Part shown: one piece after another, positions 6,368 through 28,038 of the stretch
How the letters are laid out: every line of letters starts with the position of its first letter
How positions within the stretch are numbered: the first letter of the stretch is position 1
Assembly: GCF_003977685.1 (NCBI RefSeq)
Contig: NZ_RYZH01000011.1
Span: forward strand, 1-64,000
DNA from: Tautonia sociabilis
GTDB taxonomy: Bacteria > Planctomycetota > Planctomycetia > Isosphaerales > Isosphaeraceae
Reading direction: 5' to 3'
Length of the DNA: 64,000 nucleotides
The notes under the pieces: model-generated
Databases searched by the model: none
What the model saw: the letters and a program-made list of their open reading frames with translations, nothing else
What the model was told of the DNA's origin: nothing
Made by a program: the position numbers and the translations under genes

Positions 6368-7642
6368 ATGCCGCTGGACCTGCTGACCCGACTCGATCCG
6401 CTGCGCCGCGTCCAGTGCCCGTTCTGCTTCGAGCGGTTCGCGGCGTTCGAACTGCACGTCAAATGTGACGGCCCGGGATGCGAGTCGGACTTCAGCCGAC
6501 AGGTCGAAGACCCGATCCTCACCCGGACCTTCTTCGGCTCGGGCGCGGACTCGATGATTCGGAGCCCGTGGTGGGTCGACCCGAGGAGGGACCAGCGGCG
6601 GGGGGTTCGGAGGCACCTCGATTGGCTGGTGCTGCCGGGATCCCTCGACTGCCCGAACTGCGGCCGGGAGACCGACTGCCGTCTCTGCCCGAGGTGCCAT
6701 CAGCGAATGCCCGAGGCGGCCATCGCCAGGAGGCCGGGGCACATCACGGTCTTCGGGCCGCAATCGGTGGGCAAGACGACGTACATGACCGTCGTGCTCA
6801 ACGAGTTCGACCAGCACGTCGGCCCCGAGCGCGGCCTGCTGCTGGAGCCGATCGACGAGGAGGTGCGCCGCCGCTATCGTCAGGAATACCGGGACGTGAC
6901 CTACGGGTCGGCGCTCCAGGGGGTCGGCGTCGGCCACTGGGGCGAGGTGACTCGCCAGGCGCACATGCCGACGCCTCCGCTGGAGGTCAACCGCCGGGTG
7001 CTCCAGCCGCTGGTGTACAAGGTGAAGCGGCGGGGGAAGACCGGCAGCGAGCCCCTGCTGTCGTTCTCGGACATGGCCGGGGAAGACTGGGAGATGAACT
7101 TCTCCGTCCTCCGCCGGGAGGCCGGGCACCTGATCCGGCGGGCGAAGGGGCTGCTCCTGCTGATCGACCCGATGCGGCTGCCCCAGGTGGCGTCGGACCC
7201 GAGGATGCGGCTCTCCCCCAAGGAGGCGATCGCTCCCCCGGCCGACTATCGGGAGGACCTGTCGAAGCTCGCCGGCTTCTTCGACCGGGTGCCCGTTCGC
7301 GTGCCGCTGGCGATTTGCCTGAACAAGCTCGACCGCTGGGGGCCGCTCATGGCGCCCGGGACGACGCTGCATGAAGTCGCCACCGGGGTGCCGGGCAAGC
7401 CGATCGAAGGGGACCTGGACGTCCTCGTCCACGAGGAGGTCCGAGCGGCGATGAGGCGGTGGGACCAGCTTTCGTTCCTGGAGCACCTGGGCATCGACTT
7501 CCCCCGTCACCGCTTCTTCGCCTGCTCGGCCCTGGGAGACGCCGCCCAGGAGGACGAGGAGGCCCCCCAGCCGCTGCCGACCCCGCTGCTGGTGGAGCGC
7601 CCGCTGCTCTGGCTGCTCCGGCAACAGGGGCTGCTTCGCTGA
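6368..7642 (+). CDS. Zinc-ribbon TRAFAC-type GTPase (double-GTPase-like)
   Basis: A 424-residue protein. The N-terminal third has paired cysteines of zinc ribbons (C17/C20, C33/C38, C95/C98, C104, C107/C110). A P-loop GTPase follows, with Walker A GPQSVGKTT at 130-138, a G3-like DMAGED at 235-240 and a G4 NKLD at 319-322, so GTP rather than ATP is the likely nucleotide. There are no membrane segments. The family resembles the bacterial GTPase-domain proteins annotated as double-GTPase or TRAFAC-clade, which are often found with chaperone-like and vWA genes. The gene directly downstream codes for a GrpE-like protein, 39 bases away. The ATG at 6368 is taken because the zinc ribbon starts just after it; no strong ribosome site is visible. 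Function unknown. Confidence 0.8.
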   Translation: MPLDLLTRLDPLRRVQCPFCFERFAAFELHVKCDGPGCESDFSRQVEDPILTRTFFGSGADSMIRSPWWVDPRRDQRRGVRRHLDWLVLPGSLDCPNCGRETDCRLCPRCHQRMPEAAIARRPGHITVFGPQSVGKTTYMTVVLNEFDQHVGPERGLLLEPIDEEVRRRYRQEYRDVTYGSALQGVGVGHWGEVTRQAHMPTPPLEVNRRVLQPLVYKVKRRGKTGSEPLLSFSDMAGEDWEMNFSVLRREAGHLIRRAKGLLLLIDPMRLPQVASDPRMRLSPKEAIAPPADYREDLSKLAGFFDRVPVRVPLAICLNKLDRWGPLMAPGTTLHEVATGVPGKPIEGDLDVLVHEEVRAAMRRWDQLSFLEHLGIDFPRHRFFACSALGDAAQEDEEAPQPLPTPLLVERPLLWLLRQQGLLR

Positions 7643-7681
7643 TCGAACCGCCGAGCCATTCTTCCCCCCGCCCCCGAGCTA

Positions 7682-8446
7682 ATGATGAGCGACGACGACC
7701 GGCCCGATGTGACCGAAGAGCCCCGGGAGGACGAGCAGGAGGCGGGGCCTCCCCCGGAGGAGACTCCCGATCGAATCGAGGAGGAACTGGTCGCGTCGGC
7801 CTCGTCGTTCGAGTCGATCGCGACGATCGGCCCGCCGGGATGGCCGGACGCTGCCTCCGAGGACGCCAGCGTCGAGCCGACCGGCATCAGCATCGCCCCG
7901 CCGGCCGATCCGATGACGCCCGTGCTGGAGGCGATCGCCGGACTCGGGGACCTGCTCGGAGGGCGGCTCGACCGGCTCCAGGCTCAGTTTGACCGGGAAC
8001 TGAGGGCGGAGTCGACCCGGGAGAAAGTGGTGGATCGGCTCCATGCGGAGCTGCAGGAGTACAAGAACGATCTGCTCCTGAAGGTCACCAAGCCGATCTT
8101 CCTCGACCTGATCGTGTTGCACGACGACATGGGGAAGATGGCCGATTCGGTCGGCGACGATCGGGCCGCGGGCCTGCTGAGGGACTTTCAGCGGGGGGTG
8201 GAGGATGTGCTCTATCGCCAGGGGGTGGAGCCCTTCCGGGTCGATGGGGAAACGTTCGACCCGAGGCGGCAGCGGGCGATTTCGACCGTCTCGACGGAGG
8301 ACCCGGCGCGGAACAAGACGATCGCCGCCCGGCTCCGGCCGGGGTTCGCGAGCGGAGACCTGGTGATCCGGCCGGAGCTGGTCTCGGTGTTCGCCCTCCG
8401 GAAGGCTCCCGCGACCGGGGAGCAGTCCGGGGCCCAGGAGCCGTGA
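7682..8446 (+). CDS. GrpE-like nucleotide exchange factor
   Basis: A 254-residue protein with an acidic, disordered N-terminal region (residues 1-75), a helical middle (about 80-185) that includes a putative coiled coil around LHAELQEYKNDLLLK, and a C-terminal part ending in FASGDLVIRPELVSVFA, which matches the GrpE beta domain (typical RPAMVxV). GrpE proteins eject ADP from Hsp70. This one is more divergent than a housekeeping GrpE, is not beside dnaK or dnaJ, and follows a GTPase gene at 39 bases. I infer that it serves the two unusual Hsp70 proteins encoded 5-9 kb downstream. Confidence 0.75.
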   Translation: MMSDDDRPDVTEEPREDEQEAGPPPEETPDRIEEELVASASSFESIATIGPPGWPDAASEDASVEPTGISIAPPADPMTPVLEAIAGLGDLLGGRLDRLQAQFDRELRAESTREKVVDRLHAELQEYKNDLLLKVTKPIFLDLIVLHDDMGKMADSVGDDRAAGLLRDFQRGVEDVLYRQGVEPFRVDGETFDPRRQRAISTVSTEDPARNKTIAARLRPGFASGDLVIRPELVSVFALRKAPATGEQSGAQEP

Positions 8447-8483
8447 GCGAACGACCGCCCCCGGATCGGTTGAGGAGCCCTCG

Positions 8484-9569: not shown

Positions 9570-9695
9570 GCGTGCGGAACGGTTCCGGTCCGGACAGGGG
9601 AGCCGGAACTGTCGCTTTCTGAGAGAAGGGGAGGCAGGGGCGGGCGTCCCCGGACGGGCCGGGAGGGGCTCGCCGCCACCGAGGAGGATTGATCG

Positions 9696-10361
9696 ATGGA
9701 CCATGGGAATCGTCGCCACCTCTCGCGCCGGGGGATGCTCGGCGGGCTCGCGTTCGGGGCCGCCGCGTTCGCGACGCGGGGGGCATTCGCCGAGGAGCTC
9801 GTCCGGACGCCTCCCCAGACCGAGGGGCCGTTCTACCCGGACCACCTGCCGCTGGACACGGATAACGACCTGCTCATCATCAACGATGAGATCACTCCGG
9901 CTGTCGGCGAGGTGACGCACCTCTCCGGCCGCATCCTCGACGCCAGGGGAGAGCCGGTCCGCAATGCCGTGGTGGAGATCTGGCAGGTCGACAACCAGGG
10001 CGCCTACCTGCACTCGGGGAGCGACAACCGGTCGGCCCGAGATGCGAACTTCCAGGGGTTCGGCCGCTTCCTGACCGGATCGACCGGCGAGTACTACTTC
10101 CGGACGATCAAGCCCGTCCCCTATCCCGGCCGGACTCCCCACATCCACTTCAAGATCTGGAAGGGCCGCGAGGCGCTGCTGACGACCCAGTGCTACATCA
10201 ACGGCCACCCCGGCAACGAGCGGGACGGCATTCTTCGCCGGATCACCGACCCCGCCTCCCGGAAGGCGGTGCTGGTCGATTTCAACCCGGTCGCGGGCTC
10301 TCGCATCGGGGAACTCGCCGCGAAGTTCGACGTGGTGCTCGGGTTCACGCCGGAGGCGTGA
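9696..10361 (+). CDS. Tat-exported intradiol ring-cleavage dioxygenase (protocatechuate 3,4-dioxygenase beta-like)
   Basis: The 221-residue protein starts with a twin-arginine signal (SRRGMLGG at 10-17, then a hydrophobic stretch to AFA near 32). The intradiol dioxygenase fold follows. The Fe(III) ligands of the family can be placed as Y104 (GAYLHS), Y143 (KPVPYPGRTP) and H149/H151 (PHIHFK). Family members open catechol-type rings between the two hydroxyls, but small exported planctomycete forms have uncertain substrates. GAGGAGG sits about eight bases before the ATG. No aromatic-degradation genes surround it, so a pathway cannot be assigned. A strong hairpin follows its stop. Confidence 0.85.
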   Translation: MDHGNRRHLSRRGMLGGLAFGAAAFATRGAFAEELVRTPPQTEGPFYPDHLPLDTDNDLLIINDEITPAVGEVTHLSGRILDARGEPVRNAVVEIWQVDNQGAYLHSGSDNRSARDANFQGFGRFLTGSTGEYYFRTIKPVPYPGRTPHIHFKIWKGREALLTTQCYINGHPGNERDGILRRITDPASRKAVLVDFNPVAGSRIGELAAKFDVVLGFTPEA

Positions 10362-10389
10362 CTCGGGATCCCCCGCGTTTCGGATCATC

Positions 10390-10440
10390 CGAGGATCGGG
10401 GTGGCTGAGCCCGACTCGATGCCAGCCACCCCGATCTCGG
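10390..10440. terminator. Two-way hairpin between dioxygenase and VIT-vWA genes
   Basis: GATCGGGGTGGCTG at 10394-10407 pairs perfectly with 10423-10436, and with a single bulge the stem grows to about 18 bp. It lies between two converging genes. There is no T-run. Confidence 0.6.
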
Positions 10441-10483
10441 ATCGTCTCGCCTCGAAGGGCGCCGGAATCCGATCGCTCCGAGA

Positions 10484-12763
10484 TCAGCGCTCGTCGGCCG
10501 GCGGTGCGGGCTCGATCCGGTAGACCTCCTCCCCGATGGCGACGACCAGCGGCTGGGAGAAGGAGAGGTAGGCATTCTCCTTCGCGGAGAGGCGTCTCGA
10601 GAGTGCGAAGTAAGGCTCGGTGAACTGGGTGATCGTGGTCGCTCCCCGCTCGTCCTCGGGGGAGACGGCGGAGTCGATCCAGCGCCCGTCGCGGAAGAAG
10701 AAGGTCTTCGGGCCGACCTTGCGGACCGTGGCGACGGGGACGACGTTCCCCTCGAAGTCCCGGGCGACCGCCATCGTGCCCCCGGCCGGCGCCATGCCCA
10801 TGCCTCCCCGGCCCATCCGGCTCGAGCTGAGATCAGACTCGGGGGCAGAGGCGGCTGCGGCGAGCGTTTCGGGGGTCAGGAGCCGATCGTTCCGCTGGTA
10901 GTAGGCCTTGTTGGCCCGCTGGCCGACGCCGGCGGCGCCCTGGACCTCGCTGAGTCGATCGAGCTGGTCTCGGGCGCGTCGGGTGTTCAGCCCAATGGCG
11001 AAGTGGTCGGTCTCCTCGTCGGCGAGGAAGGAGGTGTACGGCGTGAGGATGCCGTACTGGGTGCTGAGCCGGACGAGCTCCTCGGTCAGCTCGGGGTTCG
11101 CTCCGTGCAGGTCGATCTGGTCGATGATCTCGCCAATGCGTCGGGAGGCCCAGAGGGGCTCGACGAAGTCGTAGCGGGTTCCCGCGCCGGGCTGCGCGAG
11201 GTCGGCCTCGAACGAGAAGGTCCGGCGCTCCTCGCCGACGGTGCCGGTGAGGCGGACGGTCGCCTTGCCGGATCGGGTGTAGCGGCCGACCCAGGTGAGC
11301 TGGCCGCCCTCGAAGAGGTCGGGGAGCGATCGGGGGTAGGTGCGGTTCAGGTCGGTGCCGTCGACCTCGACGCGGAGGCCGGCGAGGACCGGGCTGGTGA
11401 GCTTGGAGAAGAAGCGGGAGACGACGGCCTCGATGTGCTCGTCGGGCTTGACGTAGGCGCTGGCTCCGCCGTGGTCGGCCGAGAGGCGGTCGAGCAGGCG
11501 GGCGTTGACATCGAAGCCGACGCCGAAGGGGAAGATCCGGGCATCGGTGCGGTTGGCTTCTCGGGCTCGATCGGCGATGCGAAGCTCGTCGGTCTCCCCG
11601 ACGGTGGGGAGCCCGTCGGTCAGGAAGATGACGTAGCGGGGGCGGCCGTCGTCTTGGAGCATCTCCAGGGCGGTGCGCAGGGCGGCGTCGAGGTTCGTGC
11701 TGCCGCCGGCCCGGATGGTGTCGACGAAGGCGAGGGCGTCCCGGCGGGAATCGGGGGAGTAGCGCTGCAGCTCGGGCCTGTAGGTTTCGACGAGGTCGTC
11801 ATAGACGACGATGTTGAAGGTGTCGTCCTCGTTGAGGTGATTCAGAACGAACGTCAGGGCGTCCCGGGCCTGCTCGATCTTCTCTCCGGTCATGGAGCCG
11901 GAGCGGTCGAGCACGAAGACGACGGTCTTGGGGGCCGGGTGGCGGTCCCGGCGGTCGGAGGAGACGTCGGGGCTGGCCAGGAGGAGGAAGTACCCGTCCT
12001 CGTCGCCGTCCGGGCGAACGCTGAGGACCGAGGCGCCGAGGCCTCCCTCGGCGAGGGTGTAGAAGACGCGGAAGTCGGCGGCGGGGACGACCTGGTGGGC
12101 CCGGTAGGAGACGTGGGCCTCGTGGTCGGAGCGGGACAGGTGGTCGAGATCGTGGCTGGGGCTGTAGAGGGACTTGATCGGGGTCCGGCTCTCGACGCGG
12201 AGGGAGAGCTCGAGCGTCTCGATCGGCTTGGCGGTGAACTTCTGAGTGCCGAAGGGATAGGAGAACTCGACGACCTCGCGATCCCGGTGCAGGAGCTGGG
12301 TGTAGGTCATCGTGACCGTGCGCTCGGCCTGGGGAGGGATGGGGAAGACGCTCGTTTTGATCAGGCCGCGGCCCATGTACTCGAGCAGGGCGGGGTCGCG
12401 CTTGCGACGGACGATCTCCTCGTAGATGCGTCGGGCCTTCTCGGCGTCCATCAGCTCGCCGGGGAGCTCCTTGCCGTCAACAAGCAGGACGACGTCCTGA
12501 ATCGTGCCGGCGTCGGGCACAGGGAAGAGGTACTCGGCCTCAATGGTGCCGGAGGAGGGGTTGCTGAGGGTCTGCGAGACGCGGACCCGGGCCACCTGCT
12601 CTCGGACCAGGGCATCGACGACGACCGACTTGACCTCGAACGAGCCGGCCACGGGACGATCCGGGATCCGGTCGACGAGGATCCCCTGTCCGGAGGCGGG
12701 CGGGCCGACCGCGAGCAGCCAAGGGAGCGCGAGGACGAGGAGGCGGGGACGCGTCGGAGACAT
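10484..12763 (-). CDS. Exported VIT and vWA domain protein
   Basis: A 759-residue protein with a signal peptide (residues 1-26, cleavage after ASG). A VIT domain follows (about 30-160, with the typical NPSSGTIEAEYLFPVPDAGTI region and an EKARRIYEEIV helix), then a vWA domain at about 278-455 with an intact MIDAS start DRSGSM (286-291). A C-terminal part of about 300 residues contains alanine- and glycine-rich linkers. The architecture is that of inter-alpha-trypsin-inhibitor heavy-chain-like bacterial proteins, thought to act outside the cell in protein binding. I see no C-terminal membrane anchor or sorting signal. It runs opposite to the Hsp70 cluster and shares a 281-base divergent region with it. 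Confidence 0.88.
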   Translation of the reverse strand: MSPTRPRLLVLALPWLLAVGPPASGQGILVDRIPDRPVAGSFEVKSVVVDALVREQVARVRVSQTLSNPSSGTIEAEYLFPVPDAGTIQDVVLLVDGKELPGELMDAEKARRIYEEIVRRKRDPALLEYMGRGLIKTSVFPIPPQAERTVTMTYTQLLHRDREVVEFSYPFGTQKFTAKPIETLELSLRVESRTPIKSLYSPSHDLDHLSRSDHEAHVSYRAHQVVPAADFRVFYTLAEGGLGASVLSVRPDGDEDGYFLLLASPDVSSDRRDRHPAPKTVVFVLDRSGSMTGEKIEQARDALTFVLNHLNEDDTFNIVVYDDLVETYRPELQRYSPDSRRDALAFVDTIRAGGSTNLDAALRTALEMLQDDGRPRYVIFLTDGLPTVGETDELRIADRAREANRTDARIFPFGVGFDVNARLLDRLSADHGGASAYVKPDEHIEAVVSRFFSKLTSPVLAGLRVEVDGTDLNRTYPRSLPDLFEGGQLTWVGRYTRSGKATVRLTGTVGEERRTFSFEADLAQPGAGTRYDFVEPLWASRRIGEIIDQIDLHGANPELTEELVRLSTQYGILTPYTSFLADEETDHFAIGLNTRRARDQLDRLSEVQGAAGVGQRANKAYYQRNDRLLTPETLAAAASAPESDLSSSRMGRGGMGMAPAGGTMAVARDFEGNVVPVATVRKVGPKTFFFRDGRWIDSAVSPEDERGATTITQFTEPYFALSRRLSAKENAYLSFSQPLVVAIGEEVYRIEPAPPADER

Positions 12764-13044: not shown

Positions 13045-14709
13045 GTGAGCGAGCCGATGAAGCGGGTCTACGGCATCGACCTGGGGACGACGTACTCGGC
13101 GATCGCCTATGTCGACGAGCACGGCAAGCCGGTGATCGTGCCGAACCAGGAGAGCGATCGGATCACCCCGTCGGTCGTGCTGTTCGACGGCGACGCGATC
13201 ATTGTTGGCAACACCGCGAAGGAGTCGGCCAAGGTCGAGCCCGATCGGGTCGTCAGCCGGGTCAAGCAGCACATGGGGGACCCGCACTTCGTGTTCGAGT
13301 ACGAGGGGCAGTCGTACAGCCCGGAGGACATCAGCTCGTTCATCCTCCGCAAGGTGGTGGGAGACGCGGAGGTTGCTCTCGGCCTGTCCGACGACGAGAA
13401 GATCACCGATGTCGTCATCACCTGCCCCGCCTACTTCGGCACCTCCGAGCGCGAGGCGACCGCCAACGCCGGCGTGCTGGCCGGCCTGAACGTCCGGGCC
13501 GTGCTCAACGAGCCGACGGCGGCGGCGATCGCCTACGGGTTGGAGCAGGACCGCGACCAGGTGGTCCTGGTCTACGACCTCGGCGGCGGCACGTTCGACG
13601 TGACGATGATCGAGATCAAGGACCGCCTGATCCGGGTCATCTGCACCGGCGGCGATCATCGCCTGGGCGGGACGCTCTGGGATGAGGCCATCGTCATGCA
13701 TCTGGCCGACCAGTTCCGGGAGCAAACCGGGCTGGACAGCGACCCGATGGACGACCCGGAGGTGCTCAACGACCTGTTCCTCCAGGCCGAGCGCGGCAAG
13801 AAGACGCTCACCCAGCGCGACAAGGCCCCGTTCCGGGTGACTCACGCCGGGCAGTCGGCTCGGGTCGAACTGGACCGTTCGACCTTCGAGGAGATCACTC
13901 GACACCTGATGGACCGGACGCTCGAGCTCACCCGGGAAATGCTGGCCGACGCGAAGGAAAAAGGCTACGAGGGCTTCGATTCGTTGATCCTCGTCGGCGG
14001 CGCCACGAGGATGCCTCAGGTCCGCGACCGCCTCGTGGCCGAGTTCGGCATCGAGCCGATCAGCTTCGACCCGGACGAGGCGGTCGCCAAGGGGGCGGCC
14101 CTCTACGGCTTCAAGGAGTCGATCCAGCAGCAGGTGGTGCAATACCTCCCCGGGGCCGAGGGGGAGGGCGGGCGGTTCGACCCTTCGGCCGTGACCGAGG
14201 AACAACTGGAGAAGGCGCTGGACGCGATCGAATCGCAGACCGGCTTCACGCTCAGCGGCCCGGTGCGGGAACTGGTGGGGACGCAGATCGTCAACGTGCT
14301 GTCCAAGAGCCTGGGGGTGATCGCCCGGAACGACGAGGGGAGGGACGTGGTCGTCTACCTGCTCCCCCGCAACGGCGAGGTGCCGATGGAGCGCACTCAG
14401 GACTTCGGCACCGACCAGCCGAATCAGTCGGGGGTGGACATCCGCGTCATGGCGGGAGAGCGGGACAGCCCGGAGCCAATGGACTGCCAGGAGGTCGGCG
14501 TCGCGCAGCTTCACCTCCCCGAGGGTCTGCCGGCGAGGAGCCCGATCCGGGTCACGTTCGGCATCACCCGGGACGGCCGCCTGACCGTGACCGCCACGGA
14601 TCTGACCGGAGGCGGCTCGATCGACGTGGAGTTCGAGACCGAGTCGGTGATGAGCGCCGAGAAGCTCGCCGACCGGTCGACGGCCCTGCGACTGATGGAG
14701 GTTTCCTGA
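13045..14709 (+). CDS. Hsp70-family (DnaK-like) protein lacking the C-terminal lid
   Basis: The N-terminal ATPase domain is complete: phosphate-1 loop YGIDLGTTYSA at about residues 9-19, the VPAYF-like stretch VITCPAYFGTSERE, NEPTAAAIAYGLE, phosphate-2 loop VYDLGGGTFDV, and LVGGATRMPQV with the adenosine-binding motif. A substrate-binding beta domain follows to the end, and the helical lid of DnaK is missing (554 residues against about 640). The product is therefore a lidless Hsp70 relative, probably not the housekeeping DnaK. GTG at 13045 is favoured by TGAGGG eight bases upstream; ATG at 13057 and GTG at 13030 are alternatives. It opens a same-strand run of seven genes. Confidence 0.88.
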   Translation: MSEPMKRVYGIDLGTTYSAIAYVDEHGKPVIVPNQESDRITPSVVLFDGDAIIVGNTAKESAKVEPDRVVSRVKQHMGDPHFVFEYEGQSYSPEDISSFILRKVVGDAEVALGLSDDEKITDVVITCPAYFGTSEREATANAGVLAGLNVRAVLNEPTAAAIAYGLEQDRDQVVLVYDLGGGTFDVTMIEIKDRLIRVICTGGDHRLGGTLWDEAIVMHLADQFREQTGLDSDPMDDPEVLNDLFLQAERGKKTLTQRDKAPFRVTHAGQSARVELDRSTFEEITRHLMDRTLELTREMLADAKEKGYEGFDSLILVGGATRMPQVRDRLVAEFGIEPISFDPDEAVAKGAALYGFKESIQQQVVQYLPGAEGEGGRFDPSAVTEEQLEKALDAIESQTGFTLSGPVRELVGTQIVNVLSKSLGVIARNDEGRDVVVYLLPRNGEVPMERTQDFGTDQPNQSGVDIRVMAGERDSPEPMDCQEVGVAQLHLPEGLPARSPIRVTFGITRDGRLTVTATDLTGGGSIDVEFETESVMSAEKLADRSTALRLMEVS

Positions 14710-14722
14710 ACCGACCCGGCCG

Positions 14723-14763
14723 CCGATCCGATCCAATTCGATTCGATCCGATCCGATCCGAAC
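14723..14763. repeat. Array of TCCGA/TTCGA pentamers
   Basis: Imperfect pentamer repeats (TCCGA and TTCGA variants) fill most of the 75 bases between the first Hsp70 gene and the zinc-ribbon membrane protein gene. They resemble the array before tpx. Confidence 0.75.
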
Positions 14764-14784
14764 CGGGATGGGAGGGCCCCGGCC

Positions 14785-15453
14785 ATGTCGTCGGAATCGT
14801 TCGCCTTCGCCTGCCCCTCCTGCGCCGCTCCGGGGCGCGCCCGGACCGAGTGGGCGGGCCGATCGGTGCGCTGCCGCCACTGCAAGGCGACCTTCACGCT
14901 CCCGACCCGCGGCGAGGCGATGGCTGACACCTACGAGCTGGCCGAGCCGGTTTCCGTTGCGGCCGGGCCGGCCCCGCTGTCGGCCGGGCCGGGCGAGGGG
15001 GCGTCAACCTTCTCCCCGTCGTTCCGGGATGCCCCGCTGTCGGACGTGCCCCGCGATCGGCCCCCTCGTGGGAAGACTCGTCGGCGACAGAGCCTCCGGG
15101 AGGCGCTGCTCGAAGCGGGGAAGGATGGAAGGGTCCGGATCCTGCTCGGGTTGGGGATCGTCGCCGCGGCGCTCTCGGCGCTAGCGTTCGTGCCGGGAGT
15201 CGGGCCGATCCCCGGGTGGGTCCTCTCCGGCTTCGGGATGCTGCTCGTCGCGATCGGTTCCGGGGCCGGCGCCTATGCCGCCTTCCGGGAAGACCTGCTG
15301 TACGGTATTGCATATATCGTCTGCCCGATCTATACGGGATACTACCTCGTCTCTCGGTTCGACGACCTGTGGCCGTGGTTCTCGGCCTCGACGATCGGGT
15401 TTGTCTCCTTGCTCATCGGGACGAAGGCCCTGGAGCTGGTCGGGGCGCTCTGA
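14785..15453 (+). CDS. Zinc-ribbon membrane protein of the Hsp70/vWA run
   Basis: A 222-residue protein with an N-terminal zinc ribbon of the form CPSC (residues 10-13) and CRHC (30-33). A disordered linker rich in Ala, Pro and Arg follows (about 45-115), then three or four hydrophobic segments (about 117-140, 145-165, 170-185 and 198-220). The form suggests a ribbon domain held at the inner face of the membrane, a common arrangement in planctomycete proteins of unknown role. It sits between the two Hsp70 genes, so it may be a docking partner for them. The ATG at 14785 is used; no better start is visible. Confidence 0.7.
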   Translation: MSSESFAFACPSCAAPGRARTEWAGRSVRCRHCKATFTLPTRGEAMADTYELAEPVSVAAGPAPLSAGPGEGASTFSPSFRDAPLSDVPRDRPPRGKTRRRQSLREALLEAGKDGRVRILLGLGIVAAALSALAFVPGVGPIPGWVLSGFGMLLVAIGSGAGAYAAFREDLLYGIAYIVCPIYTGYYLVSRFDDLWPWFSASTIGFVSLLIGTKALELVGAL

Positions 15454-15491
15454 TTGGCCGGAGGATCGGCCTCGCGCCGAGGGGAATCGCC

Positions 15492-17582
15492 ATGTCCGCG
15501 TTCGTCGGGATCGACCTGGGGACGACCAACTCCGTCGTGGCCCGCCGCAATGAGTACGGCCGGCCGGAGGTTGTGCCGAACCGGGACGGGGCGCCGATCA
15601 CGCCGTCGGTGATCTACTTCGGCACCGACCCGCCCAGCGTCGGTCAGGAGGCGAAGGAGTATGCGAGGCTGGGAGACGACCAGATCGCCAGCTTCTTCAA
15701 GCCCCAGATGGGCAACCCACTCTTCTCGCTCCGGTTCGGGGGCAAGGACTATGGGGCAACCGAGCTGTCGGCCCTCGTTCTCGCTCGCCTGAAGGCGGAT
15801 GCCGAGGCGGCGATGGGGGAGGAAGTCGACCGCGCCGTCATCACCGTGCCGGCCTACTTCGCCGACGCGCAGCGCAAGGCGACGATCGAGGCGGGGAGGC
15901 TGGCCGGCCTGGAGGTGATGGGGATCATCAACGAGCCGACGGCGGCCGCGCTGGCCTATGGGCTGCAAAACGCAGGGGCCGACGAAACCGTCCTGATCTA
16001 CGACCTTGGCGGCGGCACGTTCGACGTGACCGTGGCCCGGATCACTGCCGAGGAGATCACCGTGCGGGCGACCGCCGGCGACCACGACCTCGGGGGCAAG
16101 AACTGGGACGACCGGATCGCGACCCTCCTGGCCGAACGGTTCGCCGCCGAGACCGGGTTCGACCCGCTGGACGAACCGGTGGCGCTGAACGAGGTGCTCG
16201 TCCGCAGCGAGCAGGCGAAGTGGCAGCTCTCCGAGCGGTCGTCGACCCGGGTCACGCTCCAGCTCGGCACCGAACGCCGCAGCTACGAACTCACCCGGGA
16301 GGAATTCGAGGGAATGACCTTCCCGCTGATGGACCGGACCCGGAAGCTCACCGAGGAGGCGCTGGAGGAGGCGGGGCTGCGCTGGAAGGACCTGACCGGA
16401 GTGCTCCTGGTGGGCGGGTCGACCCGGATGCCGATGGTCCGTCGCTTCGTGACCGAGATGAGCGGCCAGCAGCCCCGGGCGGGGGTCAACGTCGATGAGG
16501 TGGTGGCACTGGGCGCGGTGATCCGGGCGGCGATGCTCGTCGGGGAGCAACCGGAGGACGCCCGGCCGAGGTTCACGCTCGCAGGGGCGACATCGCCGCG
16601 GTTCACGCTGCCCGGCCCGTCCCGGATCAGCGACGTGATGTCGCACAGCCTGGGGACGGTGGCCGTCAGCCCGGACGGCTCGGCGTATGTCAATGATGTG
16701 GTCGTCCGACGGAACGTGGCGATCCCGGCCAGGGGGACACGGTCGTACCGACTGGCGACGCACGGCGGGAGGAACGACCGGATGGAGGTCTACCTCACGC
16801 AGGGAGAGAGCGCGGCGCCGCTGGATTGCACGATCCTGGGCAAGTATGTGTTCACGGGAATCGAGGCGACCGACGCCGAGGTGGACGTGGACGTGTCGCT
16901 CTCCTACGACCAGGACGGGGTCGTGCAGGTTTCGGGCATGCAGCGCGATACGGGGCACCGGCTGGCGATGCACGTGGAGCCGGTGCCGGACGATCTGTCG
17001 TGGCTTGGCCGGCCTCCCGAGGGGGGGGCCGTCGAGGGGGAACCGGCGCCAATCACGCTGTTCCTGCTCATCGACGTGTCGTCGAGCATGGCCGGCGAGC
17101 CGCTGGCCGAGGCGCAGGAGGCGGCCCGGGCGTTCCTGGACCGCTGCGATTTCACGCACACCGAGGTTGGACTGATCTCCTTCTCCGATCAGGTCGAGCT
17201 GCAGTCCGACGCGACCGACAATGCTCGCCGGCTGATCGCGGCGATCAATCGCCTCGACGCCGACGGAACAACCAATCTGACCGACGCGATCGCCCTGGCC
17301 CGGTCGCACCTGACGGAGCTGGACCGGACGCGATACATCGTCCTGCTGACCGACGGCTATCCGGACTCGGCCGACTCGGCCGTGGAGGAGGCGGACGCGG
17401 CGAAGCGGGAGGGGGTGGAGATCGTCGCGATCGGCACCGGAGAAGCGGACCTGGACTACCTGCGCCGGCTCTCGAGCACCGAGGAGGGGTCGATCTTCGC
17501 CCGACGAGGGGAGCTGGTGCAAACCTTCGGGCACATCGCCCGGGTGATCGCCGAGGGCGGCCGCGCCCTCCGCCTGACCTGA
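15492..17582 (+). CDS. Hsp70-vWA fusion protein
   Basis: Of the 696 residues, the first 375 or so form an intact Hsp70 ATPase (FVGIDLGTTNSVVARR at 4-19, VITVPAYFADAQR, NEPTAAALAYGLQ, IYDLGGGTFDVTVA, LLVGGSTRMPMV). A beta substrate-binding region follows (about 390-510). In place of the helical lid there is a vWA domain from about 518, with MIDAS residues DVSSS at 528-532, TTN near 592-595 and a TDGYPD loop. There is no signal peptide or membrane segment. GAGGGG lies just before the ATG. The fusion suggests ATP-driven control of metal-dependent protein binding. It is 38 bases from the gene before and 19 from the gene after. Confidence 0.9.
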   Translation: MSAFVGIDLGTTNSVVARRNEYGRPEVVPNRDGAPITPSVIYFGTDPPSVGQEAKEYARLGDDQIASFFKPQMGNPLFSLRFGGKDYGATELSALVLARLKADAEAAMGEEVDRAVITVPAYFADAQRKATIEAGRLAGLEVMGIINEPTAAALAYGLQNAGADETVLIYDLGGGTFDVTVARITAEEITVRATAGDHDLGGKNWDDRIATLLAERFAAETGFDPLDEPVALNEVLVRSEQAKWQLSERSSTRVTLQLGTERRSYELTREEFEGMTFPLMDRTRKLTEEALEEAGLRWKDLTGVLLVGGSTRMPMVRRFVTEMSGQQPRAGVNVDEVVALGAVIRAAMLVGEQPEDARPRFTLAGATSPRFTLPGPSRISDVMSHSLGTVAVSPDGSAYVNDVVVRRNVAIPARGTRSYRLATHGGRNDRMEVYLTQGESAAPLDCTILGKYVFTGIEATDAEVDVDVSLSYDQDGVVQVSGMQRDTGHRLAMHVEPVPDDLSWLGRPPEGGAVEGEPAPITLFLLIDVSSSMAGEPLAEAQEAARAFLDRCDFTHTEVGLISFSDQVELQSDATDNARRLIAAINRLDADGTTNLTDAIALARSHLTELDRTRYIVLLTDGYPDSADSAVEEADAAKREGVEIVAIGTGEADLDYLRRLSSTEEGSIFARRGELVQTFGHIARVIAEGGRALRLT

Positions 17583-17601
17583 TCGAGAGGGGCCCCGAAC
17601 C

Positions 17602-18522
17602 ATGTCCACCACCGCGCCGACCGACCCCCGATCCCTTGCCCGGGCCCTGGCGAGCAACGCGAGGCAAGCCTACGCGCTGGCGGTGGCCGGGGCGCTGGGA
17701 GCGGTCATCGGCCTGTTCTCGTATGCCGAGCTGATCCGGCCGTTCGACGGGCTCCGGCAGGCCGACGCGCTCTGGTGGGCCAGGAACCTGATGGCCGGGG
17801 CGGCGCTGGGGGGCTCGATCGGCTTCTTCCTGAACGCGGTCGACCCGCTTCGCGATGGCGCCCCGCTGAAACTGGCGAGGACGACGACCTGGGGGGCGAT
17901 CGCCGGCGCGGCGGGGGGAATGGTCGGCCTGGTGCTCGGCGAGCTGGTGCTCGGGGGCCTGCGCGGGGGGCCGATCGGCCGGTCGGTGGCGTGGGCGATC
18001 CTGGGGCTGGGGATCGGCCTGAGCCAGGGGCTCGCGGATCGATCCCGGCAACGGTTGATCTACGGCCTGATCGGCGGCGGCCTGGGAGGGCTGGTCGGCG
18101 GCTTCCTCTTTGAGGTGCTCCGGGAAGGCCTGGGCAACCGCTACGATCTGAGCCAGGGGCTCGGCGTGGCGATTCTCGGCGCCGGGCTGGGCCTGTTCCT
18201 CGCCCTGGTCGAGCAGGTGCTCCGGAGGGCCTGGGTGATGGTCCTCAACGGCCGGCAGGAAGGGCGGTCGTACCTCCTGGCGACCCGGCTGGCCCGGCTC
18301 GGGCTGGACGAGCGGGCCGAGGTCGGCCTGTTCGGCGACGCGACCGTGGCCCGTCAGCACGCCGAGATCGAACGGCGGGGCGAGGGTTACGTCCTCCGCA
18401 ACCTGGACGAGAAGGGCCGGACTCGCCTCAACGGGCGGCCCGTCTCGGGCGAGCAGCGGCTTTCCGACGGCGACCGAATCGAACTGGGGCGCACGGCCCT
18501 CGTGTTCCGGAGCCGGTCTTGA
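17602..18522 (+). CDS. Membrane protein with C-terminal FHA domain
   Basis: A 306-residue protein. Hydrophobic, glycine-rich helices fill about residues 22-215 (roughly five to six segments). A cytoplasmic FHA domain follows at about 230-306, with the pattern VGLFGDATVARQHAEIERRGEGY and LNGRPVSGEQRLSDGDRIELG. FHA domains bind phosphothreonine peptides, so the protein may recruit phosphorylated partners to the membrane. The conserved Arg-His of FHA is present (ARQHAEI). No kinase gene lies in this run; the nearest Ser/Thr kinase gene is about 14 kb away. It starts 19 bases after the Hsp70-vWA gene and is surely in its operon. Confidence 0.82.
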   Translation: MSTTAPTDPRSLARALASNARQAYALAVAGALGAVIGLFSYAELIRPFDGLRQADALWWARNLMAGAALGGSIGFFLNAVDPLRDGAPLKLARTTTWGAIAGAAGGMVGLVLGELVLGGLRGGPIGRSVAWAILGLGIGLSQGLADRSRQRLIYGLIGGGLGGLVGGFLFEVLREGLGNRYDLSQGLGVAILGAGLGLFLALVEQVLRRAWVMVLNGRQEGRSYLLATRLARLGLDERAEVGLFGDATVARQHAEIERRGEGYVLRNLDEKGRTRLNGRPVSGEQRLSDGDRIELGRTALVFRSRS

Positions 18523-18605
18523 CGTAGGATGGAAGGGAGCGCGCGCGGACGGGACGGATCGACCTCGTTATTGATTCGAAGCGTGTTGATGCGAGTGGTC
18601 GCCCC

Positions 18606-20171
18606 ATGAATCGGCAATCGGGAGGCATCGGCTGGTCGCTGGAGGTCATCCGGGGCCGGGAGGTGGGGCGTCGGTTCCCGCTGCTCAAGGGGCGGTCGAT
18701 CCTGGGCAACGGGGTTGGCGATGGGGATGGCATCGATCTCTCGGGCCAGGAGGGGGACTCTCCCCGCCGGATGGCCGCGAGGCAGGCCGTGGTCGAGCTC
18801 GGAGCGGACGGGCCGAGCATCCGGGACCTGGACAGCCCCGGTGGGACCTTCGTCAACAAGCGGAGGCTCCTCCCCGATCAATCGCAACCCCTCCGGGACG
18901 GGGATCTGCTCCAACTCGGCGGCGTGCAGCTCCGGGTGGTGGGCGCTCCAGCGGGACGGGAGACGGCGGAGCCTTCCGCCGGCCCGACGCCCACTCGAGC
19001 CGCCTCGGTGAGGAGACCGGGCGCCTCGGCGACGGCGCGGCCCGTCGTCCGATCCGTTTCCAGGCCAAACCCGCGACCGACGCCGACGCCGAGCCCGGCG
19101 CCGAGCCCGAGCCCGACGCCGACCACGACGAGCCCGATGGCGTTCGCCCTCAAGGGCGGGCCGGTCTGCCGGAGCTGGGATGACTTCCTGACCGTGTCGG
19201 CCCAGCGTTGGGGGGAGCTCCGGGAGGAGCTGACCTCGGGCCGGCTGGCGGCGTACCTCGTCTCGACCGGCAGGGGGGACCTCGCTCCGAGGGCGGACGC
19301 TCCCGGGGCGCCGGATGAGCGGCTGGATGCCTGGCTCGGATCGCTGCCGGTCGGCCGGCCGGCGAGGCCCGAACTGGAGGTGCACCCGAGGTCGATCACT
19401 GTCCGGGCGACGCCCGGAGCCCGGACGAGGAGGACGATCCGGGTGTCGAACGTCGGCTTCCGGCTGCTGCGATCGACGGCCCGGGTCGAGCCGGCCGGGG
19501 CGGCCTGGCTGGCCGTCGCGTCGGAGTTCTCGCATCCGTTCACCACAGTGGAGGAGACCGAGGTCGTTGTGGAGGTGACTGTGCCGGATCCGTTCCCCGG
19601 GAAGATGACGGGGGCCGTGGTCATCGACGGCAACGGCGGCTCGGCCCGCGTGGCGATCGTGCTCGAGGCCCCGGAGGCGAGGGGGGCGGAGCCGTTCGGC
19701 GAATCGGCTGAGGCGATGGTCGGGGGGGCGGGGCTCGACGAGATCGGGGAACGCTGGGCCGGCTGGTTGGCTCGATTCGGGATGGCACGCCGAGTGATCG
19801 GTGGCGCGGTGCTGGGTCTGGGCGTCCGGCTCGGGATCGGGGCGGCGAGCGGGCTGTCGGGGCTGGCGACCCTGCCGGGGCCGGCGGTGGTGCTGGCGGC
19901 GACGGGGGCGGTGGCCGGGGCGATCGCCGCGGGGCGGCGGGGGGGGCCGCGCGACGTGCCGGCCGGCGGCTTCGCGGGAGGCTTCGCCGGGCTCGTCGTG
20001 GCGGCGGTGGCGGTGGCTGCGTGTCAGGCGATCGAGCCCATCTTGGGGACGGCGCTGTCGGGAAATCTCGTCGCGGTGTCGGTCCTGTGGACGGCGATCG
20101 GGGCGGTGCTGGGCGCGGCCTCGATCCTCGCGGTTCCGGAACGGTCGGCGGGGCAGGGGGGAACACCATGA
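18606..20171 (+). CDS. FHA domain, Ig-like and membrane protein
   Basis: A 521-residue protein. The N-terminal FHA domain spans about 12-112 (motifs ARQAVVELGADGPSIRDLDS and GTFVNKRRLL). A Pro/Ser/Thr-rich linker follows (about 120-172), then a helical region (175-265), a segment like an Ig-type beta domain with VHPRSITVRATPGARTRR and ASEFSHPFTTVEETEVVVEV (255-355), and hydrophobic helices from about 395 to the end. Two FHA membrane proteins in a row suggest a phosphothreonine-dependent assembly. The gene's stop overlaps the next gene's ATG (ATGA). The start ATG at 18606 directly precedes the FHA domain; a ribosome site is not obvious. Confidence 0.78.
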   Translation: MNRQSGGIGWSLEVIRGREVGRRFPLLKGRSILGNGVGDGDGIDLSGQEGDSPRRMAARQAVVELGADGPSIRDLDSPGGTFVNKRRLLPDQSQPLRDGDLLQLGGVQLRVVGAPAGRETAEPSAGPTPTRAASVRRPGASATARPVVRSVSRPNPRPTPTPSPAPSPSPTPTTTSPMAFALKGGPVCRSWDDFLTVSAQRWGELREELTSGRLAAYLVSTGRGDLAPRADAPGAPDERLDAWLGSLPVGRPARPELEVHPRSITVRATPGARTRRTIRVSNVGFRLLRSTARVEPAGAAWLAVASEFSHPFTTVEETEVVVEVTVPDPFPGKMTGAVVIDGNGGSARVAIVLEAPEARGAEPFGESAEAMVGGAGLDEIGERWAGWLARFGMARRVIGGAVLGLGVRLGIGAASGLSGLATLPGPAVVLAATGAVAGAIAAGRRGGPRDVPAGGFAGGFAGLVVAAVAVAACQAIEPILGTALSGNLVAVSVLWTAIGAVLGAASILAVPERSAGQGGTP

Positions 20172-22258
20172 CCCGGGCGATCCTGGCGGCGGCGGCTGTG
20201 CTGGCGATGATCCCTCCGACCGCGATCGGTCAGGGAGACGACCTCGACAAGAGAGTTGAGGAGGCGATCGCGAGCGGGGTGGAGTACCTGCGCCGAGAGC
20301 AAGCCCGGGAGGGGCACTGGGATTATCGGCTTGCGCACAATCATCGGTTGGGGATGACGGCACTCTGCGGCCTCGCACTGCTGGAGAACGGGGTGCCGGC
20401 GGACGATGAGGCGATCCGGAAGGCCGCGGTCGTGGTGCGCGACTTGGCGGCGGTGTCAGACCAGACGTATGACCTGTCGCTCGCGATCCTGTTCCTGTCC
20501 CGGTTCCAGGGGACGACCCGAGGGGAGCTGGACGCGCTGATCGTCCGGCTGGCGAGGAGGCTGGAACGCGGCCACCACGAGGGGATCTGGTCGTACAAGG
20601 TGCCATCGGGGGAGGAGTCGTCGGTGGGCTCTTCGCGGTTCGCCGCCTTTTTTTCCGGGCCGGGAGATCATTCGAACACGCAATTCGCCTTGCTCGGCAT
20701 GTGGGCGGGGGGGCGGCACGGATTCGACTCGGACGGCGCCCTGGCCGAGCTGGATGCTCACTTCCGATCGACCGCGAACCCGGACGGGGGCTGGGGCTAT
20801 CAGCCGGGGGCGGGGAGCACGCCCTCGATGACCTGCGCCGGGCTGATGGCGCTGGCGATCTCGGCGGCTCGGCCTTCGCTGGCGGAGCGACGCTCGGCCC
20901 GGGCGAGGGGAGAGGCCCTGGCCTCGGATCCGGCCTTCCGGGAGGCCCTGGAGGCGGTGTCACGGCGGGCGAGGTCGATCGGAGGAAATGAGGATGTGTA
21001 TTATCTCTGGTCGCTGGAGCGGGTGTGCGTCGCCCTCGGGCTGAGGGACCTGGACGGACTCGACTGGTATCGATCTGGGGCGGAGTCGCTCCTTGCCCGG
21101 CAAATGCCCAACGGAGGATGGCCGCACGGCAGGTGGGGGGCGCTGCCAGAGTCGTGCCTGGCGATGCTGTTCCTGCGCAAGGCGAACCTGGCGTTCGAGC
21201 TGGACCGTGTGCTGAAGCTACCCGGACCGGCGATCGCCCAGGCCGACTCGATCGGCGCCACCCCGGTCGCCGAAGCGCCCGAGGTGGGGACGACCACGGG
21301 AGACGACGGGGTGGCGGTGACCGTCCGGCAGGTGGACGAGTCGGGCTTCCCGGAGATCGCGCTCGACTTCGAGGTGACGGGACCGGACGGCTCTCCTGTG
21401 CTGGACGCGACGATAGACGACTTCCGCGTCTCGGAATACGACCAGCCGGTGGAGATCCTGCGATTTGGCGCTCCCGCGTCCCGGGAGGCGGTGCAGACGA
21501 CCGTGGTGCTGGTGGTCGACCACAGCCGGAGCATGGAGGCGGAGGACCGGATCGGGGCGCTGAAGGAGTCGGTGCGCACGTTCCTGAAGGTGATGCCGAA
21601 CGGCTCCCGGGTGGCCGTGGTGGCGTTCAGTGACGAGATCCGGTTGATCTGTCCGTTCACCACGGACGCGAGACAGGTGCAGGAGGCGGTCGACGCGCTC
21701 CAGCCGATCGGGGGCACTCGGTACTACGACGCCGTGGTCGAGGCGCTGGAACTGCTCTCGGAGGAACCGGGGAGGCGGGCGGTGCTGGCGATGACCGACG
21801 GCGAGGACACGTTCAGTCAGTTCGCCGACCTGGGAACGGCGGTGCTGGCCGCCCGGCGATCGGGGTTGCCGGTGCATACGCTGGGGCTCGGCACCGAGGA
21901 CGAGATCGCCAGCGACGACCTGCGACGGCTGGCGGTCGAGACGCGAGGCCAGTACTTCCCGGCTCGGGACGCGGATCAATTGCTGGCGATCTATGAGGAA
22001 ATCGCCACTCGGCTGGGGCAGATGTATCGCCTCGTCTACCGGACCAAACGGCCGCTGCCTGACGGAACATTGCGGCCGGTCTCAGTGGCCTATCGCGCCT
22101 CGGCGGCGGTGGGGACGGCGGAGGTCTTCATCCGGGGGATGGTGGTGCCGGCCTCGGGATGGCCGAGGCTGTTCCTCGGCCTGGTTGTGGGGCTGGTCCT
22201 GCTGGCGATCTTGCCCGGCCGGCTGAGGCGTCGGGCCGGCCTCGGCCCGGGAGCGTGA
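20168..22258 (+). CDS. Exported terpene-cyclase-like toroid fused to vWA domain with C-terminal anchor
   Basis: The 696-residue product begins with a signal peptide (MTRAILAAAAVLAMIPPTAIG). An alpha-alpha toroid like squalene/prenyl cyclases and related repeat proteins follows (about 30-345), with toroid repeats such as GLALLENG, SNTQFALLGMWAG, NPDGGWGYQPG and MPNGGWPHGRWG. A beta linker (about 370-440), a vWA domain at about 443-625 with the MIDAS start DHSRSM (D451) and TDGED, and a transmembrane segment near 668-688 complete it. No catalytic DxDD motif of cyclases is seen, so the toroid is likely a binding module. The ATG overlaps the stop of the preceding gene. Placed outside the inner membrane. 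Confidence 0.82.
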   Translation: MTRAILAAAAVLAMIPPTAIGQGDDLDKRVEEAIASGVEYLRREQAREGHWDYRLAHNHRLGMTALCGLALLENGVPADDEAIRKAAVVVRDLAAVSDQTYDLSLAILFLSRFQGTTRGELDALIVRLARRLERGHHEGIWSYKVPSGEESSVGSSRFAAFFSGPGDHSNTQFALLGMWAGGRHGFDSDGALAELDAHFRSTANPDGGWGYQPGAGSTPSMTCAGLMALAISAARPSLAERRSARARGEALASDPAFREALEAVSRRARSIGGNEDVYYLWSLERVCVALGLRDLDGLDWYRSGAESLLARQMPNGGWPHGRWGALPESCLAMLFLRKANLAFELDRVLKLPGPAIAQADSIGATPVAEAPEVGTTTGDDGVAVTVRQVDESGFPEIALDFEVTGPDGSPVLDATIDDFRVSEYDQPVEILRFGAPASREAVQTTVVLVVDHSRSMEAEDRIGALKESVRTFLKVMPNGSRVAVVAFSDEIRLICPFTTDARQVQEAVDALQPIGGTRYYDAVVEALELLSEEPGRRAVLAMTDGEDTFSQFADLGTAVLAARRSGLPVHTLGLGTEDEIASDDLRRLAVETRGQYFPARDADQLLAIYEEIATRLGQMYRLVYRTKRPLPDGTLRPVSVAYRASAAVGTAEVFIRGMVVPASGWPRLFLGLVVGLVLLAILPGRLRRRAGLGPGA

Positions 22259-22266
22259 GCGAACCC

Positions 22267-23181
22267 ATGTCGCCACCTCCCATTCGCTATCCGCTGCCGA
22301 CCCTGGCGCTCCTGGTTCTGCTCGCCGTGCTCTCGTGGTGGGGGAGGGACTGGCTCTCCGCGGCCGGAGCGGCGGTCCGGTCGGGGATCGATCGCATCGC
22401 CTCCGGGCCGCCGGTGCCCAGCTCGAGCGACCCGATGCAGGGGGACGGAGGGATCGTCCGGAAAGTCCTGCTGCTCCGGGACGGCGTCGAGGCGACCGAC
22501 CGGCCCGATGGGACGACGGTCGAGACGATCGGCCGTCGGATCTTCGCCGACGTGTACGACGTCTGGCCGCTGACGGGAGAGCCGACGCATTACCGGATCG
22601 GCAACCGCCGGCCGATCGGATGGGTCCCGGCCGAGGAGGTGCTGCCCTGGGATACCCGGATCGTCCTCATCCCGGAGCCCGGTCGGATTGCCCTGGCAGA
22701 CGAGCCGGGCGGCTCCGATCGGGCCCTGGTCGAGGTCGATGGCACTCCTCTGCCGGTGGTTGATTGGCGAGGGGGCGACTTGAGGATCGTTGCCTGGGAG
22801 CTCGGGAAGGGCTGGGAACGCGTCTCCCGATCGGGATGGGTCCGGGTCGGACAGGTCAACGGCACCCTCGGAGCCCTGGTCAGCCGGACCGAGCTGCTGG
22901 AGCTGTTGCGACGATCGCTCGACGTCTCGCCGGCCGAGGCACGGGCCCTGCGCGTGTTGACGCTCCTCGGGAGGATGGCCCCCGGCGAGTCGATCAGGGC
23001 GGAACAGGTCGAGGAGGTCGAACGAGCCCTGTCCGGGGGGGGCGAACTGGGCGGTTCCCCCTCGATCGACCGGGAAGCGCTCTCCGATCGGTTGGGGAGA
23101 CTCAACGACGAATGGGAGGCGGATGCGACCTGGTCCGGGATCGAGTACCGGGCGATCCCGCTGAACGATCTGTCGGGGTGA
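22267..23181 (+). CDS. Membrane-anchored protein with SH3b-like domains
   Basis: A 304-residue protein with one N-terminal membrane anchor (about residues 10-28) and a mainly soluble remainder. Residues about 63-185 look like two small beta-barrel, SH3b-type repeats (KVLLLRDGVEATDRPDGTT and WVPAEEVLPWDTRIV in the first). A helical C-terminal half follows (SPAEARALRVLTLLGRMAPG). SH3b domains usually bind peptides or cell-wall material. ATG at 22267 gives the anchor at the very N-terminus; a GTG at 22255, overlapping the stop of the toroid-vWA gene, would add four residues. It closes the seven-gene run, with a strong terminator hairpin after it. Confidence 0.72.
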   Translation: MSPPPIRYPLPTLALLVLLAVLSWWGRDWLSAAGAAVRSGIDRIASGPPVPSSSDPMQGDGGIVRKVLLLRDGVEATDRPDGTTVETIGRRIFADVYDVWPLTGEPTHYRIGNRRPIGWVPAEEVLPWDTRIVLIPEPGRIALADEPGGSDRALVEVDGTPLPVVDWRGGDLRIVAWELGKGWERVSRSGWVRVGQVNGTLGALVSRTELLELLRRSLDVSPAEARALRVLTLLGRMAPGESIRAEQVEEVERALSGGGELGGSPSIDREALSDRLGRLNDEWEADATWSGIEYRAIPLNDLSG

Positions 23182-27873: not shown

Positions 27874-28038
27874 GGTGGGAGTCCCTGGGGTCGTCGATCG
27901 AGGGGCGAGCGGTCGGGACACCGGGAGAGGGGGCGCGGGTGCCCATCCGGTACGAGTCTCGGCATCACCTTATCCGCGCCCGGGAGGCACCCGCAAGTCG
28001 CGGCAAGCGCAGGGGAGACGGCCGTTGCCCGCTTCGGA

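Follow-up and report, generated by a model that had tools for sequence, protein, structure and literature searches.

A 64,000-nucleotide stretch of DNA from Tautonia sociabilis, hereafter called the window, includes in its list of open reading frames (ORFs) a run of seven genes, g1 through g7, located on the plus strand between positions 13045 and 23181. The run encodes two Hsp70-family proteins together with membrane proteins that carry vWA or FHA domains. Its core, composed of g1, g3, g4, and g5 plus a g6-type neighbor, is co-retained among genomes of the order Isosphaerales, and the locus seems less a wholly new pathway than a membrane-bound branch of a GTPase-and-chaperone system that has already been described.

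Organization of the Seven-Gene Run

The first gene, g1 (13045..14709), encodes an Hsp70 protein without a helical lid (PF00012) and begins with a GTG codon at position 13045 that is common to all three genus relatives compared. It is followed by g2 (14785..15453), whose product is an optional membrane protein with zinc-ribbon-like cysteine pairs, and by g3 (15492..17582), which encodes a second lidless Hsp70 fused to a C-terminal vWA domain (PF00012 and PF00092). The g4 gene (17602..18522) specifies a glycine-rich protein with multiple transmembrane (TM) segments and a C-terminal degenerate FHA domain (PF16697/PF00498), and g5 (18606..20171) specifies a degenerate FHA domain, a small helical domain, a PapD-like domain, and C-terminal TM helices. 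The g6 product (20168..22258) combines an N-terminal hydrophobic, signal-like stretch, a toroid, a vWA domain, and a C-terminal TM segment. Finally, g7 (22267..23181), which is again optional, encodes an N-terminal anchor and a beta-rich part of SH3 type.

The gaps between successive genes, from g1 to g7, are 75, 38, 19, 83, −4, and 8 bp, in agreement with an initial annotation of this DNA that described seven genes on one strand with small gaps and two overlaps or near-overlaps. The same annotation had proposed Hsp70, vWA, and FHA domains, and these were confirmed by a Pfam scan that placed Hsp70 in g1 and g3, vWA in g3 and g6, and FHA in g4 and g5. Among the seven proteins, the scan gave no match to AAA+, nuclease, toxin, or McrBC GTPase domains. 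Ratios of nonsynonymous to synonymous substitution rates range from 0.05 to 0.32 across all seven genes when compared with three genus relatives, which indicates purifying selection, and g1 identity is 74 to 89% within the alignment and 91% for two genus relatives.

Co-retention of the Core Genes

Conservation was assessed in 45 genomes of the order, including that of T. sociabilis. A simple ORF caller missed genes in places, and presence was instead counted from genome searches and hidden Markov models. By this measure, g1 is present in 36 of the 45 genomes, g3 in 35, g4 in 33, and g5 in 34; the last two counts derive from raw tallies of 35 each, after removal of low-scoring matches in G006 and G019 for g4 and in G003 for g5. 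Every genome with g3, g4, or g5 also carries g1, and all four genes are absent from nine genomes (G003, G004, G005, G015, G022, and G034 through G037), two of which are incomplete assemblies (G036, 64%; G037, 77%). Partial sets were seen in G013, where g1 lies at a contig end and g3 is missing, in G019, where g3 is cut by a contig end and there is no close g4 or g5, and in G006, which is without a close g4 and shows only the toroid part of g6.

The genes are mostly linked in related genomes. Adjacency (less than 4 kb) of g1 and g3 was observed in 29 of the 35 genomes with g3, with four separate (G012, G017, G018, and G019) and two left unassigned. The g3 and g4 genes adjoin in 31 of 35 (one separate, one without a close g4, and two unassigned), g4 and g5 in 30 of the 33 genomes with g4 (three separate), and g5 and g6 in 31 of the 34 genomes with g5 (three unassigned). 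A 4-bp overlap between g3 and g4 was called in 15 of 34 loci, where the window has its 19-bp gap. The initial annotation had named scattered, unlinked genes in related genomes as grounds for refuting a joint system. Dispersal is indeed seen in a few genomes, yet there the full set is retained. For example, in G012, which is assembled as two contigs, g1, g3, g4, and the g5-g6 block occupy four places over 3.4 Mb of one contig (L205, L206, L210, and L065), with all core genes kept and g5 and g6 still neighbors. Likewise, the g5-g6 block of G024 resides on a different contig, and the set is retained.

A DnaK tree built from 40 genomes requires five changes to explain absence of the cluster, and well-supported branches make each of them necessary. 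The g1, g3, and g5 genes change together in five of five independent pairs, giving a sign test p of 0.0625, which is the minimum reachable with five pairs. DnaK serves only imperfectly as a species marker, and the tree leaves out G009, G013, G017, G027, and G043, which have no full DnaK place; g3 labels were set equal to those of g1, as applies to these 40 genomes, and G019 was uncounted for g4 and g5. A single shared function of the core genes, as the initial annotation had implied for the run, is well supported by this co-retention and co-loss, which extends to genomes whose genes are unlinked.

By comparison, the g6 toroid and the genes g2 and g7 are optional. Of 34 loci, some of them truncated by contig ends, 4 contain a g2 homolog and 8 a g7 homolog; elsewhere, the place of g2 between g1 and g3 can be taken by a TM protein or by a Uma2 protein. 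The zinc ribbon originally ascribed to g2 is visible by eye as cysteine pairs, but the MJ0042 zinc-finger match (13.9 bits) falls under the Pfam cut-off of 20.9. For g6, the squalene-cyclase-like toroid is a weak Pfam match (27.2 bits against a cut-off of 26.2) that is absent in many relatives and present in G012 and G024. The g7 protein, which had been called SH3b-like, has no Pfam match, but its AlphaFold model (predicted local distance difference test [pLDDT] score of 84) gives modest matches to SH3-type wall-binding folds (E about 1e-4, with low template modeling scores), suggesting that a fold of this kind may be present.

Sequence Features of the Hsp70 and FHA Proteins

Six ATPase positions (equivalents of D8, T11, K70, E171, D194, and T199) were scored against the organism's own DnaK, whose gene is located separately on contig C89. 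All six are kept in 18 of 18 g1 rows and in 21 of 21 g3 rows. Alignments A1 and A3 start at conserved positions, which do not coincide with a start codon in every row. The helical lid is absent from both proteins, as g1 ends after the beta domain and g3 has its vWA domain there, and the linker motif is altered in both. The DnaK arginine position that we take to be the J-protein contact site is occupied by Ala or Ser in 18 of 18 g1 rows. In g3, this Arg is kept in 19 of 21 rows, with Gly in the window and in L039. The metal ion-dependent adhesion site (MIDAS; DxSxS, T, D) is intact in the vWA domains of g3 (21 of 21 rows) and g6 (12 of 12 rows), and metal binding by g3 is predicted from these residues. 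Judged at the level of sequence, the ATP-driven Hsp70 modules and metal-dependent vWA binding proposed in the initial annotation are therefore probable features of the run.

The two FHA families present a different picture. Columns were placed by eye against GarA/OdhI alignments, and we presume that the Arg, Ser, and Asn columns correspond to the phosphothreonine-binding residues. In g4, the Arg is replaced by Leu in 17 of 17 rows, Ser is kept in one, and Asn is kept in none. In g5, the Arg is replaced by Asn, Ala, or Ser in 16 of 16 rows, Ser is again kept in one, and Asn in none. Because these residues are changed in both families, the phosphothreonine recognition that had been assigned to g4 and g5 appears unlikely, and we rejected it as a role for these domains. 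A predicted model of g5 (pLDDT 80; predicted template modeling score 0.42) gave Foldseek matches to FHA and PapD-like folds, and by this model the protein would consist of an FHA domain, a small helical domain, a PapD-like sandwich, and TM helices.

A g4-type TM-FHA protein was also observed outside the family, in G343 (L142), inside a ubiquitin-like cluster that by Pfam includes YukD-like ubiquitin-like, ThiF, JAB, UQ_con, and RING-trypsin proteins. Other g4 homologs outside the family (L149, L147, L148, and L151) resemble L142 by sequence only.

Upstream GTPase-like and GrpE Genes

Two genes upstream of the run, absent from the initial annotation, may be relevant to its function. A zinc-ribbon protein resembling DO-GTPase2 (PF19993) is encoded on the plus strand at 6368..7642, with an ATG at 6368 in a frame that is open from 6266, and P-loop, DxAGE, and NKLD motifs as well as cysteine pairs are recognizable by eye. 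Searches with tblastn matched this protein to a DO-GTPase of G428 (E = 8e-30, 119 bits), a genome outside the family, and to locus L161 of Singulisphaera acidiphila at 60% identity. The adjoining gene (7682..8446, plus strand) encodes the second GrpE-like protein of the genome (PF01025, 2.2e-11); of the two GrpE matches, the stronger one is on contig C11. Perhaps the best explanation for the whole, which we put forward tentatively, is that the run supplies the chaperones and membrane proteins of a larger module, to which the DO-GTPase-like protein and a dedicated GrpE also belong in this genus and in some relatives.

A VIT-vWA gene (10484..12763, minus strand; PF08487 and PF13768) is the divergent neighbor of g1, and a gene of this type also lies upstream of g1 in L043, L044, L046, L047, L048, L056, and L057. 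VIT-vWA is linked to the cluster in several genera, and its membership is uncertain. On the other side of the run, the minus strand at 23254-27921 encodes a 1555-amino acid protein in which three amidohydrolase stretches are accompanied by an AcrB-like one of about 90 amino acids.

Relatives Outside the Family

Among the matches listed for a phylum sample of 392 genomes, the whole g3 profile was matched outside the family only in G428. A class sample of 397 genomes, drawn evenly from a larger group, contained 37 genomes with a g3 match at E ≤ 1e-135, and these comprise 35 order genomes (some cut by contig ends), G428, and G552. In G428, relatives of g3 and g1 adjoin genes for GrpE, an fn3 protein, a DO-GTPase, and GAP1-N2, and in G552, genes for GrpE, two Hsp70s, a zinc-ribbon protein, and GAP1-N2 occur in a row. 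A tree that did not include G552 groups the G428 pair with g1 (100/99) and g3 (99/94). The position of the J-contact arginine is Gln and Glu in the g3 relatives of G428 and G552, and therefore loss of this residue is not special to g1 in those genomes.

Scans also covered seven further loci of the phylum that carry lidless Hsp70s. GrpE is encoded beside three of these (L138, L145, and L154), and the remaining four (L137, L139, L141, and L153) have a DnaJ-type match below the cut-off. A contig scan with two strict patterns, which cannot exclude the cluster in other phyla, yielded 23 loci, 22 of them planctomycete and one an acidobacterial vWA match (L180, 38% identity, near a contig edge). Near the G428 locus, L204 contains an ORF (6678-10603) with a P-loop-like start that appears MoxR-like by eye, along with a 510-amino acid neighbor.

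GAP1-N2 is found in 29 of the 45 order genomes, and its presence does not track the cluster: G029 through G032 carry the cluster and no GAP1-N2, and G003 and G005 carry GAP1-N2 and no cluster. The only GAP1-N2 match in the T. sociabilis genome is on contig C110 in a different neighborhood. We considered this locus as a missing half of the system and rejected it, given that its neighbors are response-regulator-like and coiled-coil proteins by eye and that its GTPase is only distantly like the window GTPase (42 bits by blastp, versus 119 bits by tblastn for G428). A short GAP1-N2 with a small zinc-ribbon GTPase recurs in several Isosphaeraceae (L286, L288, L289, L291, L292, and L293), where the neighbors likewise resemble, on visual inspection, response regulators and coiled-coil proteins.

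Comparison with Known Systems

The gene set was compared with passages from open-licence literature (PMC7159879, PMC8195603, and PMC11090510). As presented in the passages of Kaur et al. 2020 (eLife, PMC7159879), GAP1-N2 systems feature GrpE, two Hsp70s, and a GTPase and are called conflict systems, and the DO-GTPase/HSP70 conflict systems are predictions from genome context. The T. sociabilis locus shares with them a GrpE and two Hsp70s, although GrpE is about 5 kb from g1 rather than adjacent, and the zinc-ribbon GTPase-like protein of the window is a candidate counterpart of their DO-GTPase. The relatives of g1 and g3 in G428 and G552 do adjoin GAP1-N2. Unlike those systems, FHA-TM, toroid-vWA, and SH3 membrane proteins are added here, and the arrangement is conserved in one family. 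The passages do not describe such a membrane part; in their section 29, the second Hsp70 is described as lacking a peptide-binding domain and an Hsp70-vWA fusion is unmentioned. In the window proteins scanned, there is no match to GAP1-N2, fn3, or DnaJ, nor to a fusion of FNIII with DnaJ or TPR; for fn3 and TPR, this negative covers those proteins only and not the whole 64 kb. The DnaJ matches of the genome all map to contigs other than that of the window. Membership in the GAP1-N2 systems proper was rejected for lack of a linked GAP1. The initial annotation had stated that no described pathway has this gene set. This holds for the membrane part, as far as the passages of PMC7159879 go, but not for the chaperone part, whose relatives outside the family occur with GrpE and GAP1-N2 in systems of the type reported by Kaur et al. 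and which has its own DO-GTPase-like and GrpE genes in the window.

Three other systems are partly similar. MoxR-vWA pairs of the RavA-ViaA type, as portrayed in the passages of PMC7159879, likewise couple an ATPase chaperone to a vWA domain that is proposed to grip peptides, but here the ATPase is an Hsp70 fused to vWA, and no AAA+ protein was matched among the seven. CoCoNuT systems, according to the passages of PMC11090510, also combine Hsp70-like nucleotide-binding and substrate-binding domains with vWA proteins in one predicted operon, whereas the present run has membrane proteins and no McrBC GTPase or nuclease match in its seven products. Canonical DnaK/DnaJ/GrpE systems share the nucleotide-binding domain with six ATPase positions, the beta substrate-binding domain, and a GrpE, and differ by having the lid, the unaltered linker, and the J-contact arginine that is replaced in g1.

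Proposed Function and Alternatives

The data support the conclusion that the chaperone core belongs with DO-GTPase/HSP70 systems and is a co-inherited module. The most likely reading, to which we assign a probability of roughly 0.4, is that the locus encodes a GAP1-free, membrane-tethered derivative in which Hsp70s controlled by a GTPase and GrpE remodel an envelope complex. In the cytosol, the GTPase and GrpE would set the nucleotide state of both lidless Hsp70s. The vWA domain of g3 may replace the lid by gripping the client in a metal-dependent manner, and g1, without the J-contact arginine, could serve as a regulatory partner of g3. The g4 and g5 proteins would hold the client or the chaperone at the inner membrane through phosphothreonine-independent contacts of their FHA folds, while g6 (plus g7 where present) would take the extracytoplasmic end. 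Such a machine might assemble or remodel an envelope complex, with the GAP1 of related systems not linked here. We infer this mechanism, including its clients, signaling direction, and membrane sides, from the gene content and sequences described above. A more elaborate version, which is doubtful, is a trans-envelope machine powered by two different lidless Hsp70s that work as a heteromeric pair under a DO-GTPase and a dedicated GrpE. One Hsp70 would have a vWA domain where its lid should be, and the pair would act via FHA-fold membrane scaffolds on a vWA/toroid receptor outside the membrane.

Several observations weigh against the membrane-tethered derivative. Promoter and terminator scans of the run gave no signal above chance. 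The GTPase-like protein scores 26.7 bits against PF19993, just below the cut-off of 27, and its gene is not listed in a search of the T. sociabilis genome with this family. In a survey of 22 relatives that covered only 6 to 14.5 kb upstream of the cluster, GrpE was near the cluster in seven and the GTPase in four. In the window, an exchanger gene, a dioxygenase gene, and one divergent gene are situated between GrpE and g1. Outside the family, g3 relatives at the above threshold are confined to G428 and G552 among the 397 class genomes, and the GTPase of G552 is a weak match. In the tree that includes G428, its branches are long, and groupings of this kind are flagged by the tree program as potentially false.

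A real rival, albeit an improbable one, is a conflict (defense) system of the kind that the passages of PMC7159879 propose for GAP1-N2, with a threshold set by the GTPase and Hsp70s and with the membrane proteins acting as effectors. The nearest relatives outside the family indeed reside in GAP1-N2 neighborhoods, which are called conflict systems there. However, of the 36 genomes with g1, 35 show a single match and one shows two pieces. The high identity of g1 and the purifying selection likewise argue against defense, as does the fact that Pfam detected no nuclease or toxin domain among the seven products, and the sole PADLOC match has an E value of 0.047. With respect to mobile elements, the C-terminal part of g3 gave only vWA-type matches in 10 plasmid records, covering at most 54% of the query, and no match in phage records.

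It is similarly unlikely that the Hsp70s constitute a dedicated membrane-protein chaperone that folds g4, g5, g6, or other membrane proteins and has no signaling role. This would account for the joint occurrence of Hsp70, GrpE, and membrane proteins. However, the presence of g4 and g5 is almost as conserved as that of the Hsp70s, and the vWA fusion and GTPase-like neighbor point to regulated assembly.

Less probable still is phosphothreonine signaling, in which the FHA proteins would recruit kinase substrates to the Hsp70s. Two FHA-fold membrane proteins are present, as this explanation would have it, but the replacement of their binding Arg and Asn in every row, and of Ser in all but one row per family, is difficult to reconcile with it. 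Lastly, although g2, g7, and the g1-g3 spacer vary, we consider it very improbable that the genes are neighbors through chance or common descent only, without a shared function, and rejected a chance neighborhood because the core set is kept while unlinked (G012, G024, and G018) and g1, g3, and g5 move together in the five joint losses or gains on the DnaK tree.

If the trans-envelope machine exists, it would represent a separate class, with Hsp70 taking the part that MoxR AAA+ rings play beside their vWA partners. Carriers of the cluster such as S. acidiphila DSM 18658 make tests of these proposals possible. If the model of a membrane-tethered derivative holds, then Hsp70 would be wired to the envelope through vWA and FHA-fold scaffolds, providing a second chaperone-vWA principle beside that of MoxR-vWA, and the family as a whole would possess a relative of the DO-GTPase/HSP70 conflict systems.

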